Of a stretch of DNA of 64,000 bases, positions 49,846-63,864 are shown piece by piece. The notes under the pieces are model-generated. The model was not told where the DNA came from, searched no databases, and was given only the letters and a program-made list of their open reading frames with translations. The DNA lies in the NCBI RefSeq assembly GCF_016863615.1, contig NZ_BOPF01000021.1, positions 62,001-126,000 on the forward strand, given 5' to 3'. The position numbers and the translations under genes are program-made. This DNA comes from Virgisporangium aliadipatigenens (lineage in GTDB: Bacteria; Actinomycetota; Actinomycetes; Mycobacteriales; Micromonosporaceae). Numbering within the stretch: the first letter of the stretch is position 1; each line of letters opens with the position of its first letter.

Positions 49846-50826
49846 TCACACCCGGCGGAGCAGGCCCGCCGCCTCGACGGCCCAGTAGGTCAGGATCTGG
49901 TCGGCGCCGGCGCGGCGGATGCTGGTCAGCGTCTCCAGGATGGCCGCCTCGCGGTTGATCCAGCCGTTGGCCGCGGCCGCCTCGACCATCGCGTACTCGC
50001 CGGAGATCTGGTACGCGCTCACCGGCACGTCCACCGCCTGGCGCACCGCCGACACCACGTCGAGGTACGGCAGCGCCGGCTTGACCATGACCATGTCGGC
50101 GCCCTCCTCGACGTCCAGGGCGACCTCGCGCAGGGCCTCGCGGATGTTGCCGCCGTCCTGCTGGTACGTCTTGCGGTCGCCCTTCAGCGACGACTCGACC
50201 GCCTCGCGGAACGGCCCGTAGAACGCCGACGCGAACTTGGCCGCGTACGCCAGGATCGCCGTCTCGCCGAACCCGGCCTCGTCCAGCGCGCGCCGCACGG
50301 CACCGACCTGGCCGTCCATCATCCCGGACAGGCCAAGCACGTGCGCCCCGGCGGAGGCCTGGGCGACGGCCATCTCGCCGTAGACGTCAAGCGTCATGTC
50401 GTTGTCGACGGTGCCGTCCGGGCCGAGCACGCCGCAGTGCCCGTGCGAGGTGAACTCGTCCAGGCACAGGTCGCTCATCACGACCGTGCTGTCACCGACC
50501 TCTGCGAGCACGTCGCGCAGCGCCACGTTGAGGATGCCGTCGGGGGCGCACCCCGCGGAGCCGTCCTCGTCCTTCTCCTGCGGAACGCCGAAGAGCATCA
50601 GCCCGCCGATGCCCGCCTGCACGGCCTCGACGGCCGCCTTGCGCAGCGAGTCGCGCGAGTGCTGCACCACGCCCGGCATCGAGGAGATCGGCCGCGGCTC
50701 GCTCAGCCCTTCCTTCACGAACATCGGCAGGATGAACTGCGCGGGATCCAGCCGCGTCTCGGCGACCAGGCGGCGCAGCGCGGGTGTGCGCCGCAGCCGC
50801 CGCATCCGAACGTCCGGAAATCCCAT
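49846..50826 (-). CDS. hemB: Delta-aminolevulinic acid dehydratase (porphobilinogen synthase)
   Basis: The 326-residue enzyme condenses two 5-aminolevulinate molecules to porphobilinogen. Motifs present are MSDLCLDEFTSHGHCGVLGPDG (metal region, with Cys, Asp, His and Cys, an intermediate between Zn-type and Mg-type patterns), YAAKFASAFYGPFREA with an active-site Lys, and DMVMVKPALPYLDVV with the Schiff-base Lys. GGAGG lies 6 nt before the ATG at 50826. It is the last gene of rex-hemA-hemC-hemD-hemB, with 16 bp to cobA-hemD. Confidence 0.93.
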   Translation of the reverse strand: MGFPDVRMRRLRRTPALRRLVAETRLDPAQFILPMFVKEGLSEPRPISSMPGVVQHSRDSLRKAAVEAVQAGIGGLMLFGVPQEKDEDGSAGCAPDGILNVALRDVLAEVGDSTVVMSDLCLDEFTSHGHCGVLGPDGTVDNDMTLDVYGEMAVAQASAGAHVLGLSGMMDGQVGAVRRALDEAGFGETAILAYAAKFASAFYGPFREAVESSLKGDRKTYQQDGGNIREALREVALDVEEGADMVMVKPALPYLDVVSAVRQAVDVPVSAYQISGEYAMVEAAAANGWINREAAILETLTSIRRAGADQILTYWAVEAAGLLRRV

Positions 50827-60908: not shown

Positions 60909-62493
60909 GCAACGCCGCCTTCCTGACCTTGCCGGTGGCCGAGTGCGGCAGTTCGTCGACGAACTCCACCGCCGTCGGGCACTTGAAGCGCGCCAGGTTG
61001 CGCTCGGCGTAGGCGGTCAACTCGTCCGCGTCCACCGAGGTGCCCGGTTCGCGCACCACGAACGCCTTCACCGCCTGGCCGGTGTACGGGTGCGCCACGC
61101 CGAGCACCGCCGCCTCCCGGACGGCCGGGTGCCCGTCGAGCACCTGCTCCACCTCGTGCGGGTACACGTTGAAGCCGCTCACCAGGATCAGCTCGCCGAG
61201 CCGGTCGACCAGGAACAGGTCGCCGTCGGCGTCGGCGTACGCCACGTCACCGGTGGCCCACCAGCCGTCCTCCCCCGGGCCTTCCCGCCCGTCCGGCCAG
61301 TAGCCGGTGAAGAGGTTGGCGCCGCGCACGACGATCTCGCCGGGGTCGGTGCCGGGCGTGTTGGGCGCGTACTCGTCCTCGTCCGGCTCCTCCAGCGGGC
61401 CGTCGATCGTGATCGGTTCGCCATCGGACTGGATCAGGCGCAGCCCAACGCCGGGGATGGGCCGGCCGATCGAGCCGACCTTGGCCGTCTCGCTCGCGAG
61501 CGTGCTGGTCAGCACCGGCGCCGTCTCGGTCAGCCCGTATCCGACGTGGACCTGACGCCCGGCGCCCTCCGCGAAGCGGCGCGCGGTCGACGCGTCCAGG
61601 GGCGCCGCGCCGCAGACCGCGGTGCGGACCGCCGCGAAGGCGGGCGCGAGCCGTTCCCCCATGAGGGACCAGGCGACGTACATGGTCGGCACGCCCGCGA
61701 CCACGGTGACCCGGTGCCGCTCGATCAGATCGAGGGACTCGCCCGGGTCGAAGCGCTCGACCAGCACCCCGGTCGCGGCGTGGTACGCCACGGCGATCAG
61801 TCCGGAGTTGAGGCCGTAGGCGTGGAAGAGCGGCACGGCGAGCAGGACCGTGTCGTCGCCGGTCACCGGCGGCGGGTCGATGCCGGCGAGCTGCGCGTGG
61901 TTGGCCAGCAGAGCGCGGTGGGTGAGCATCGCGCCCTTCGGGGCACCTGCCGATCCGGATGTATATAGAAGGACCGCGAGGTCTGCCGGACTCACCGACA
62001 CGTCGGCGGTCCATTCACCGCGCGGCATGTCTTTCAGGGGGAACGTCCGAAGCTCGGCACCCGTTTCGGTGGCGGACGTGACCGTATGTCCGGTTCCGAT
62101 CAGCGCGGCGGCACCGGAGTCTCGCAGTATGTGTCCGACCTCTCGCGTCGTGTATCCGGGATTGACCGGAACGGCGACCAGCCCCGCCCGCAGGACGGCG
62201 AAGAGGGCGACGGCGAACTCGGCGACGTTGGGCAGGGCAACGGCCACCCGCGCGGGATGCGCGTCGGCGGGCAGCTCGAGCGCGCGCAGGCCCGCCGCGA
62301 CGGCGTCCACCTCACGGTCGAGTTCCGCCCAGGTCAGTTGCCGTTCGTGCCAGCGCAGTGCGGGGTGCTCCGGACGGGCGGCCGCCGCGCGCCGCACGAG
62401 GTCGGCGACGGTGCCGCCGGTGCTGTCGTGTGGTTCGTTCACCTGCTGCACGGTGACCGAGTCTGGCACAGAGTGCACCGTTCGGGGACCCAT
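60901..62493 (-). CDS. AMP-dependent synthetase/acyl-CoA ligase family protein
   Basis: The ~530-residue adenylating enzyme has the AMP-binding P-loop LAVLLYTSGSAGAPKGAMLTHRALLANH, VGYGLTETAPVLT, GWWATGDVAYADADGDLFLVDRLGELILVSGFNVYPHEVE, and the C-terminal Lys in LPHSATGKVRKAAL. It activates a carboxylic acid, most likely a fatty or aryl acid, to the acyl-CoA; the exact acid is unknown. The start is unclear: ATG 62493 (MGPRTVHS) is my choice, while ATG 62526 or further upstream would extend it. It faces away from bldN across about 340 bp. Confidence 0.85.
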   Translation of the reverse strand: MGPRTVHSVPDSVTVQQVNEPHDSTGGTVADLVRRAAAARPEHPALRWHERQLTWAELDREVDAVAAGLRALELPADAHPARVAVALPNVAEFAVALFAVLRAGLVAVPVNPGYTTREVGHILRDSGAAALIGTGHTVTSATETGAELRTFPLKDMPRGEWTADVSVSPADLAVLLYTSGSAGAPKGAMLTHRALLANHAQLAGIDPPPVTGDDTVLLAVPLFHAYGLNSGLIAVAYHAATGVLVERFDPGESLDLIERHRVTVVAGVPTMYVAWSLMGERLAPAFAAVRTAVCGAAPLDASTARRFAEGAGRQVHVGYGLTETAPVLTSTLASETAKVGSIGRPIPGVGLRLIQSDGEPITIDGPLEEPDEDEYAPNTPGTDPGEIVVRGANLFTGYWPDGREGPGEDGWWATGDVAYADADGDLFLVDRLGELILVSGFNVYPHEVEQVLDGHPAVREAAVLGVAHPYTGQAVKAFVVREPGTSVDADELTAYAERNLARFKCPTAVEFVDELPHSATGKVRKAALRD

Positions 62494-62833
62494 GCCGTTA
62501 TGCCCGATTTGTAACTTCTGTGCCATTATGTGCACGCCCGGGGCGGGAGGACACGCCGGAGGGTCGGGCGGTTCACTCACACGAGGTACATCCGTGCCAT
62601 TCTGCCGCAACCTGCACATTGGGAACGCTTCCACCGGCGTGTCCCGCGGGAATAGCGGCGTGTCGCGGCGTCATGACGCACTCACAGTGCGACACCTGCG
62701 TCCCCCGAACCGGAAATACTGTGCGTCCCTGCATCGGACTTCGCACACGGGGGTGATGTCGGTCCTACTATCAGCGGGGTCGGCTCGCCCCTTTTGCTGT
62801 GACTCGTACCCCCTCTACCTGAGGAGGCCCACA
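62494..62833. other. Divergent regulatory region between acyl-CoA ligase and the bldN leader
   Basis: This 340-bp gap should carry the bldN promoter. A possible -10 TACTAT lies at 62766-62771 with a weak -35 near 62740-62747, and a strong Shine-Dalgarno at 62821-62827. No other ORF or RNA gene is convincing here. Confidence 0.5.
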
Positions 62834-62862
62834 GTGCCCCGTTATGAATTAAAAACCTCCTC
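62821..62862 (+). promoter_or_regulatory. Possible hairpin sequestering the leader ORF Shine-Dalgarno
   Basis: GAGGAGG (62821-62827), the Shine-Dalgarno of the leader ORF, is fully complementary to CCTCCTC (62856-62862) inside the ORF, giving a 7-bp stem with a 28-nt loop holding the GTG start. The two TTA codons at 62849-62851 and 62864-62866 flank the CCTCCTC arm. Confidence 0.5.
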
Positions 62863-62929
62863 TTTAGCGGTATTGAGGGACCAGAACCCTTCCGCGAACG
62901 GCCCCCGCGATCGGAAGGTTTATCCGTGA
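62834..62929 (+). CDS. 31-residue leader peptide with two TTA codons, overlapping bldN
   Basis: This short ORF starts at GTG 62834, 6 nt after a perfect GAGGAGG Shine-Dalgarno, and stops at TGA 62927-62929, overlapping the bldN GTG by GTGA. The peptide begins MPRYELKTSSLAVLRDQ and ends with RKVYP. Codons 6 and 11 are TTA, and many others (TAT, GAA, TCT, GTA, TTG, AGG, CCT, GTT) are rare in this GC-rich genome. It is too short and composition-poor for a folded domain. Its position and RBS say it is translated and coupled to bldN. A regulatory role is inference. Confidence 0.7.
   Translation: MPRYELKTSSLAVLRDQNPSANGPRDRKVYP
62888..62918 (+). promoter_or_regulatory. bldN: Possible hairpin masking the bldN ribosome binding site
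   Basis: CCTTCCG (62888-62894) is exactly complementary to CGGAAGG (62912-62918), which includes the bldN Shine-Dalgarno. The hairpin would form in the leader ORF's 3' half and be opened by ribosomes translating the leader, linking bldN expression to leader translation. Confidence 0.5.
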
Positions 62930-63864
62930 CGGCGTTCCCCATCCAGGCAGTCAGCCCCGAGGTGCTGGCCGCCCGCATGGCCCTGACGGCAGGACTCGAC
63001 CTCCTGCGCCGCAGCATCAGCTTCAGCGACCCCCTCCGTAACTGGATGGAGATGTCGATCCAGGTGCGCGGCGACGGGCAGGTGCCCCGCACCCGCAACA
63101 AGCCCGCCGTCGACCCCGCGCCGACGTACGGCCCCGGCACCAACTCGAAGATCATCGAGGAGCAGCTCGGCAAGCCCGCCCCGGTGGCCGAACCCGACGC
63201 GGAGCCCGAGACCGCCACCGCCGACACGGTCGTCGAGGAGAAGCCCGCCACGACCGGCGGCCCCGCGCCGGCGCCCCGCCAGCGCCCCGATCCCAGCGAC
63301 GCCGCCGCCGAGGTGTGGGGGCTGGTCGAACGGGCCCAGGCCGGCGACGCCGAGGCCTTCGGCAAGATCTACGACCGGTACCTGGACACGGTGTTCCGGT
63401 TCATCTACTTCCGGGTCGGCAACCGGCAGCTCGCCGAGGACCTCACCGCCGACACGTTCCTGCGGGCGCTCAAGCGCATCGGCAGCTTCACCTGGCAGGG
63501 GCGCGACCCCGGCGCCTGGCTCGTCACGATCGCGCGCAACCTCGTCGCCGACCACTTCAAGTCCGGCCGTTACCGGCTGGAGGTCACCACCGGCGACGTT
63601 CTGGACGCCGACCGGGAGGACCGCGGCCCCGAGGGCAGCCCCGAAGCGGCGGTCGTCGACCACATCACCAACGTCGCCCTGCTCACCGCCGTCAAGCAGC
63701 TGAACCCGGAGCAGCAGGAGTGCATCGTGCTGCGCTTCCTGCACGGGTTCTCGGTCGCGGAGACCGCGCAGGCCATGGGCAAGAACGAGGGCGCCATCAA
63801 GGCCCTGCAGTATCGTGCGGTGCGCGCCCTCGCCCGGCTGCTGCCGGAGGGCTTCAAGTCATGA
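62926..63864 (+). CDS. bldN: BldN-type ECF RNA polymerase sigma factor
   Basis: The 312-residue protein has a ~125-residue N-terminal extension (AVSPEVLAARMALTAGLDLLRRSISF, NWMEMSIQVRGDGQVPRTRNKPA, then an acidic Pro-rich linker). Region 2 follows at ~140-210 (YDRYLDTVFRFIYFRVGNRQLAEDLTADTFLRALKRIGSFTWQGRDPGAWLVTIARNLVADHFK), and region 4 (LLTAVKQLNPEQQECIVLRFLHGFSVAETAQAMGKNEGAIKALQYRAVRALARLLP). These are near-identical in pattern to Streptomyces BldN, a pro-sigma factor that directs aerial development genes. The rex-hem operon nearby is also as in Streptomyces. The RsbN anti-sigma gene, usually next, would lie beyond the window. The GTG start has GGAAGG 7 nt upstream. Confidence 0.93.
   Translation: MTAFPIQAVSPEVLAARMALTAGLDLLRRSISFSDPLRNWMEMSIQVRGDGQVPRTRNKPAVDPAPTYGPGTNSKIIEEQLGKPAPVAEPDAEPETATADTVVEEKPATTGGPAPAPRQRPDPSDAAAEVWGLVERAQAGDAEAFGKIYDRYLDTVFRFIYFRVGNRQLAEDLTADTFLRALKRIGSFTWQGRDPGAWLVTIARNLVADHFKSGRYRLEVTTGDVLDADREDRGPEGSPEAAVVDHITNVALLTAVKQLNPEQQECIVLRFLHGFSVAETAQAMGKNEGAIKALQYRAVRALARLLPEGFKS

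Follow-up and report, generated by a model that had tools for sequence, protein, structure and literature searches.

The window analysed here, a 64,000-nucleotide stretch of the Virgisporangium aliadipatigenens genome (Micromonosporaceae), carries near its end a gene for a BldN-type ECF sigma factor (bldN). The top NCBIfam match of its product is TIGR02952 (BldN family; E 1.7e-60), with a score of 203.8 bits that lies slightly below the cut-off of 206.45. The gene next after bldN encodes a DUF5667 domain, a domain of RsbN proteins. In front of bldN lie a short leader ORF and a 5' element, whose features are, by position:

62766..62771, + strand: TACTAT, probable -10 hexamer (sequence and conservation), with a presumed promoter role
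62776..62812, + strand: P2, predicted stem-loop near the presumed mRNA 5' end (predicted fold, covariation in 38 loci)
62812..62824, + strand: P3, CCTC (62812-62815) predicted to pair with GAGG (62821-62824) of the leader Shine-Dalgarno (SD) sequence, pair probability 0.98
62821..62827, + strand: leader SD GAGGAGG (sequence, conservation), the counterpart of bldN's own SD in nine early-branching genomes
62834..62929, + strand: leader ORF, GTG start at 62834, 31 codons plus TGA, 4-nt overlap with bldN
62849..62851, + strand: TTA, codon 6 of the leader (sequence; not conserved)
62856-62862, + strand: CCTCCTC within the leader ORF, between the two TTA codons (sequence)
62864..62866, + strand: TTA, codon 11 of the leader (sequence; not conserved)
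62888..62918, + strand: stem CCTTCCG (62888-62894) / CGGAAGG (62912-62918), which would mask the bldN SD; in the window, absent from both congeners
62926..62929, + strand: leader TGA (62927-62929) overlapping the bldN GTG at 62926 as GTGA (sequence)
62926..63864, + strand: bldN, BldN-type ECF sigma factor, 312 aa (profile match; DUF5667 gene downstream)

The original prediction, made from the letters of this stretch, had described the GAGGAGG, the GTG, the 31 codons with TTA at 6 and 11, the GTGA and two 7-nt complements to the SDs, and all are present, at positions within 1-2 bases. The window was compared with two Virgisporangium congeners (loci L007 and L008), whose bldN loci are the same as in Virgisporangium aurantiacum and V. 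ochraceum (L005-L008).

Conservation of the leader ORF in Micromonosporaceae

The family set comprised 83 loci, namely the best 80 of 344 relatives found by a scan, plus the window, L087 and L088. GAGGAG(G/A)CC followed by GTG or ATG occurs in 73 of the 83, a count that was not conditioned on where the ORF ends, and all 73 leaders anchored in this way stand in one and the same phase relative to bldN. An NTGA overlap in the bldN frame ends 72 of them; the leader of L009 ends in TAG, whose G is common to the GTG. Leader length ranges from 16 to 67 codons in the family (31 in the window) and takes 26 values in a second set of 73 loci that was chosen for the overlap (L049 included, L009 excluded), with stops in the two other frames in 34 and 40 of these loci. 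The pattern is absent from ten of the 83 loci: one clade of eight, L076, which has no leader, and L049, which has a leader behind a slightly different upstream motif. Twenty further family loci were chosen for a distant BldN or a little-sampled genus, and a leader with the NTGA overlap is found in eight of them, two being repeats (L176 of L077, L177 of L083). Well beyond this one genome, relatives keep what had been proposed from it, a leader ORF set within structured RNA and coupled to bldN. Judged by these sequence comparisons, the leader is a genuine feature of most of the family and not a local oddity.

A conserved region of this kind could also be kept as promoter, operator or RNA sequence alone, with the leader left untranslated. 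The leader start does lie within the most conserved stretch, which is itself older than the leader, and GGGTGA and TCACCC occur near the promoter, where they resemble BldD half-sites. The bldN gene of Streptomyces is a direct BldD target, and BldN is held by the anti-sigma factor RsbN (PMC4255298). On the other side, a constant phase over 26 lengths together with a constant stop-start overlap has no evident reason without translation, and we regard an untranslated leader as highly improbable.

What is kept is hardly the peptide. Within sets of equal-length leaders, differences per codon position were 0.227, 0.236 and 0.268 in the Micromonospora type (n=7), 0.110, 0.150 and 0.098 in the Plantactinospora type (n=4), 0.113, 0.177 and 0.173 in the Catellatospora type (n=6) and 0.312, 0.275 and 0.199 in the Actinoplanes group (n=21). 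The BldN core of the same loci served as control, and there the differences concentrate strongly at the third position (e.g. 0.005, 0.002 and 0.178); a clear third-position excess was not seen in the leader bodies of any of these four groups. A lean towards the third position in two further groups (0.154, 0.038, 0.231 and 0.059, 0.059, 0.118) involves two loci each, too few for a judgement. Beyond the first residues, neither a conserved peptide nor a stall motif was found in the leader bodies of the four larger groups, and the leaders are rich in AAA, TCT, AAT and further codons that are rare in the genome. Start, stop and frame are kept while the peptide body hardly is, which fits a relay of ribosomes and speaks against a stalling nascent peptide.

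TTA codons and predicted masking stems

The original prediction had assigned the leader a sensing function, in which scarce tRNA-Leu(UAA) would stall ribosomes at codons 6 and 11 and the bldN start would stay hidden. Its premise that TTA is rare in this genome was borne out by a codon count: TTA makes up 24 of 125,874 codons (0.19 per 1000), and 11 of 112,770 past codon 40, in a sample of 336 long ORFs from the window and 19 other stretches, selected by a simple rule with a bias towards GC-rich third positions. A pattern search found a tRNA-Leu(TAA) gene, in at least one copy, and two TTA in 30 codons have a P of 1.6e-5 by the genome rate and of 0.047 by leader base composition. Early TTA is found in all three Virgisporangium leaders (codons 6 and 11, or 5). 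Across the family the picture is different. Only eight of the 73 leaders contain TTA, and its position shifts: codons 6 and 11 in the window, 5 in the two other Virgisporangium, 10 in two Hamadaea, 23 in L016, 10 in L043 and 11 in L060. The nine in-frame occurrences over the 73 leaders match the 8.6 expected from base composition, and the two other frames hold 24. These counts led us to reject TTA as a conserved sensor, and they give no sign of family-wide selection for it. Drift in an unselected, more AT-rich peptide most likely accounts for the codons, although a role confined to Virgisporangium is conceivable, since all three of its leaders have TTA early.

The structural half of the prediction, in which parts of the ORF mask the leader SD and the bldN SD, had a mixed outcome. 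The stem over the bldN SD is indeed predicted in the window, with per-base probabilities of 0.47 to 0.86 for pairing of the SD with CCTTCC. For the leader SD, the predicted partner is the conserved upstream CCTC and not the CCTCCTC in the ORF. By dinucleotide shuffles, the 7-nt complement has a P of 0.018 for the leader SD region and of 0.078 for the bldN SD region. Neither stem is conserved: the longest complement is 4 nt in both congeners, for which reason the two stems were rejected as conserved masks. In L008 another part of the ORF is predicted to mask the leader SD (0.79). The whole-leader structure of the window showed no excess over shuffles (z +0.32; +0.86 with flanks added).

Predicted accessibility of the bldN SD gave a similar result. 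Mean values for real versus shuffled leaders were 0.26 versus 0.29 and 0.29 versus 0.30 in two sets, with the real leader lower in 35 of 46 and 15 of 27 loci, a slight difference and a weak signal that falls short of demonstrating coupling through masking of the bldN SD. In the window the SD is clearly less accessible than with shuffled leaders (0.10 versus 0.36), which would suit a TTA-dependent switch, but the congeners show no such drop (0.33 versus 0.28 in L007, 0.30 versus 0.32 in L008). Taking codon usage, tRNA and structure together, we consider a TTA-sensing leader improbable.

The 5' element and the origin of the leader

Structure upstream of the leader was assessed on two alignments. 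A1 (37 loci, without the Actinoplanes group, identical segments and L088, whose segment did not turn up on the searched strand) has TATCAT as the majority form of the -10 box. A3 (38 loci) includes early-branching genomes, and covariation on it was tested for P2 alone; 27 Actinoplanes-group loci (L060 among them), L161, L162, L165, L171, L020, L029, L163, L164, L172, identical segments and loci without the anchor were left out. On A3, 86.6% of the P2 cells pair, compared with 81.4% in shuffles, and 17 cells carry double changes, compared with 5.4 (0/500 shuffles as high). The shuffles were exceeded on four of five measures (0, 0, 0 and 2 of 500); the number of pairs with a double change (5) was no better than in shuffles (74 of 500). 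The window's own copy of P2 is imperfect (z -0.56), and the fold of the P2 region is at chance level in the Actinoplanes group (n=27, mean z -0.01) compared with a mean of -1.95 in the other 46 loci. When P2, P3 and P4 were scored together on A1, 89.0% of the cells paired versus 87.9% in shuffles (1 of 500 as high), and double changes, pair types and the covariation score were no better than shuffles. P3 is paired in 94.6% of cells in the 37 loci, the window among them, and neither P3 nor P4 has any double change on A1. P4, a start-codon hairpin of the form GUGC-N8-GC(A/G)(C/U), is complete in 63 of the 73 leaders and broken in Virgisporangium. Codon 5 of the leader is GCA in 54 and GCG in 8 (62/73) and never GCC or GCT; in the sampled genes GCC is the commonest alanine codon, and GCC and GCG dominate alanine usage.

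The promoter box is bracketed by GGGTGA (62751-62756) and TCGCCC (62785-62790), with TCACCC in place of the latter in many relatives; the two could form a hairpin exclusive with P2 or serve as regulator half-sites. A candidate alternative hairpin, P1, was noted by eye, in which GGGTGAG pairs with CTCACCC, exclusive with P2 and followed by TTTTG.

A covariance model of the element (R1) finds one strong place in the genome of the window (2.0e-16; next match 0.41). The next match, at 50364-50471 of the window (17.6 bits, E 0.41 for the genome), is probably chance. Over 31 sampled genomes, R1 matched below 1e-4 in 17 of the 19 from the family, with weaker second matches of 0.003 to 0.09 in several of these, and gave no match under 0.06 in the 12 genomes from other families. 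A search of 62400-63200 of the window against Rfam 15 returned three chance-level matches, all below gathering scores, and no match in seven related loci reached a gathering score.

The Actinoplanes group carries a different hairpin, inside the leader ORF, in which eight of 14 pairs have changes on both sides (alignment A2: L012:1876-1968 and 25 relatives). Jointly with the start hairpin it has 26 double-change cells, whereas shuffles have 7.5 (0 of 500). The loop of the ORF hairpin, TGGCGG, is invariant and has its complement in CCGCC(G), which stands a few bases ahead of the bldN SD; a pseudoknot or alternative helix between loop and CCGCC is possible from the letters; these columns are invariant, and covariation is silent on them.

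The early-branching genomes place the leader in an evolutionary sequence. Among the 20 further loci, nine, from six genera, start bldN directly at the same SD and GTG, in frame and with no leader, as in MPGSAHVVTDELHMARLALTQGL. Three are counted under neither arrangement: L173 and L174 lack the anchor, and L175 seems to have a shift in its bldN frame. L175 has a leader-type start with a GTGA stop after 56 codons and its main BldN match in a different frame, and its bldN may be frameshifted or misassembled. Upstream ORFs in L161 and L162 were dismissed as chance; both loci are direct starts. R1, built without the nine direct-start genomes, recovers eight of them with E values no worse than 1.4e-6 (L165 only at 0.06), and P4 is complete in eight of the nine. 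The tree of the BldN core was built from a single short protein, and several of its supports are low; in it the nine fall outside the leader-bearing loci (support 0.899). In the Streptomyces-like family f19 (20 loci), bldN has an SD-bearing start without such an overlap.

Because these nine outside-branching genomes use the same site directly for bldN, a single capture of the ancestral bldN start by the leader is probable, with bldN acquiring another ribosome-binding site beside the leader stop. We infer the polarity of this change, from direct start to leader, from the one-gene tree. In the common ancestor of the remaining genera, additional sequence carrying a second SD and start would have come to lie between the old start and bldN. 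The leaderless clade of eight (L013, L014, L046, L050, L071, L072, L075 and L082; support 0.97) appears on this one-gene tree to have lost the leader later: the missing stretch begins with the leader SD and ends just ahead of CCCGCC and the bldN SD, and upstream CCCTCA, GGCCCGCCGGG and the bldN SD are kept in all eight. The clade is a natural deletion experiment, and direct start, captured start and secondary loss together form a natural series for studying the emergence of an upstream ORF at the start site of the gene it precedes.

Other upstream ORFs were noticed outside the family. In 19 Streptomyces-like loci (19/25 of L091-L115, 20/25 of which are in f19) the last 26 bases upstream of the bldN start do not differ at all (ATGGAAGCTCTGCCTCTGGGAGTCCC); this stretch opens an out-of-frame ORF, 34 to 111 codons long, which extends across the bldN start and differs from the Micromonosporaceae leader. 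In L120, a genome of a different family (f23), an ORF behind an SD, about 32 codons long by eye, has a GTGA end at a plausible bldN start and is possibly an independent leader.

A further reading is programmed -1 frameshifting, which would fuse the leader to BldN and give a longer N-terminus from the old start. As such a fusion would have it, the offset between the leader and bldN frames always has one direction, and the leader begins where bldN did ancestrally. With few exceptions (e.g. L026, L045 and L067), however, the loci compared have an SD-like sequence and a separate bldN start at the overlap, no shared slippery heptamer was seen by eye at the leader ends, and the leader bodies lack amino-acid selection. 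We find this idea scarcely credible.

Probable translational coupling and comparison with known systems

We consider it likely that the leader is a cistron on a captured start, coupled to bldN by termination-reinitiation. Ribosomes would enter at the strong leader SD and GTG (62821-62836), translate the leader (31 codons here), stop at the TGA overlapping the bldN start and re-initiate there, helped by bldN's own SD, so that BldN output would follow initiation at the leader start. Entry at the old start may in turn be controlled by P2, P3 (the CCTC-SD pairing) and the start hairpin P4. This reading draws on the conserved start, phase, open frame and overlap, on the direct start in basal genomes, on the lack of amino-acid selection in the leader body and on the covarying P2. 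It retains from the original interpretation the leader coupled to bldN in a structured RNA context, conserved in 73 of 83 loci, and gives up the TTA sensor and the conserved SD-masking stems.

Another reading shifts the weight to the 5' element, with P2, P3 and P4 acting as an RNA switch that responds to a ligand or protein and governs initiation at the old start, and with the leader merely relaying it to bldN. The element is older than the leader, R1 finds few other places, the hairpin P2 covaries and no Rfam family reaches threshold; the further ORF hairpin in the Actinoplanes group, with its GGCGG loop complementary to CCGCC before the bldN SD, points the same way. But the hairpins are small and simple, and a plain stabilizing 5' stem would look alike. 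We hold such a switch to be rather unlikely; it overlaps with the coupling reading and does not exclude it. Leader coupling itself may belong to a broader scheme, which we put forward tentatively and at somewhat less than even chances: a bldN-specific RNA element, older than the leader, would gate the ancestral start, most Micromonosporaceae would relay this regulated initiation to bldN by re-initiation, and single lineages would have added layers, such as the Actinoplanes hairpin with its possible pseudoknot and perhaps the Virgisporangium TTA. A conserved leader cistron, if true, would add translational control at the entry into sporulation in a family rich in antibiotic producers.

The original prediction knew of no described leader for bldN, and the literature likewise showed none: no bldN leader peptide or upstream ORF was found among the matches listed, which consist of titles and abstract beginnings and mostly do not cover subscription journals. 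Translation-level control of a Streptomyces sigma factor is described for sigR, which has an unusual GTC start codon and involves IF3, not a leader ORF as at bldN (PMC5472188). In Streptomyces, bldA (tRNA-Leu UAA) controls through TTA codons, for example in adpA (PMC4255298). The bldN locus shares with this system a rare TTA in a developmental regulator's transcript and the presence of tRNA-Leu(TAA), but its TTA sits in the leader and not in the gene, and is missing from most relatives. The erm leaders and the WhiB7/WblC uORFs are ribosome-stalling leader peptides. They resemble the bldN leader in being short ORFs upstream of a regulated gene with RNA structure nearby, whereas the bldN leader has no conserved stall codon or peptide past the first residues. 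Coupled leader cistrons and uORFs with an NTGA stop-start overlap, which work by termination-reinitiation, have the same short ORF, strong SD, stop over the next start and second SD inside the leader end. The bldN leader differs from these in occupying the gene's own ancestral start, before a developmental sigma factor, and in being kept over most of a family without conservation of its peptide.
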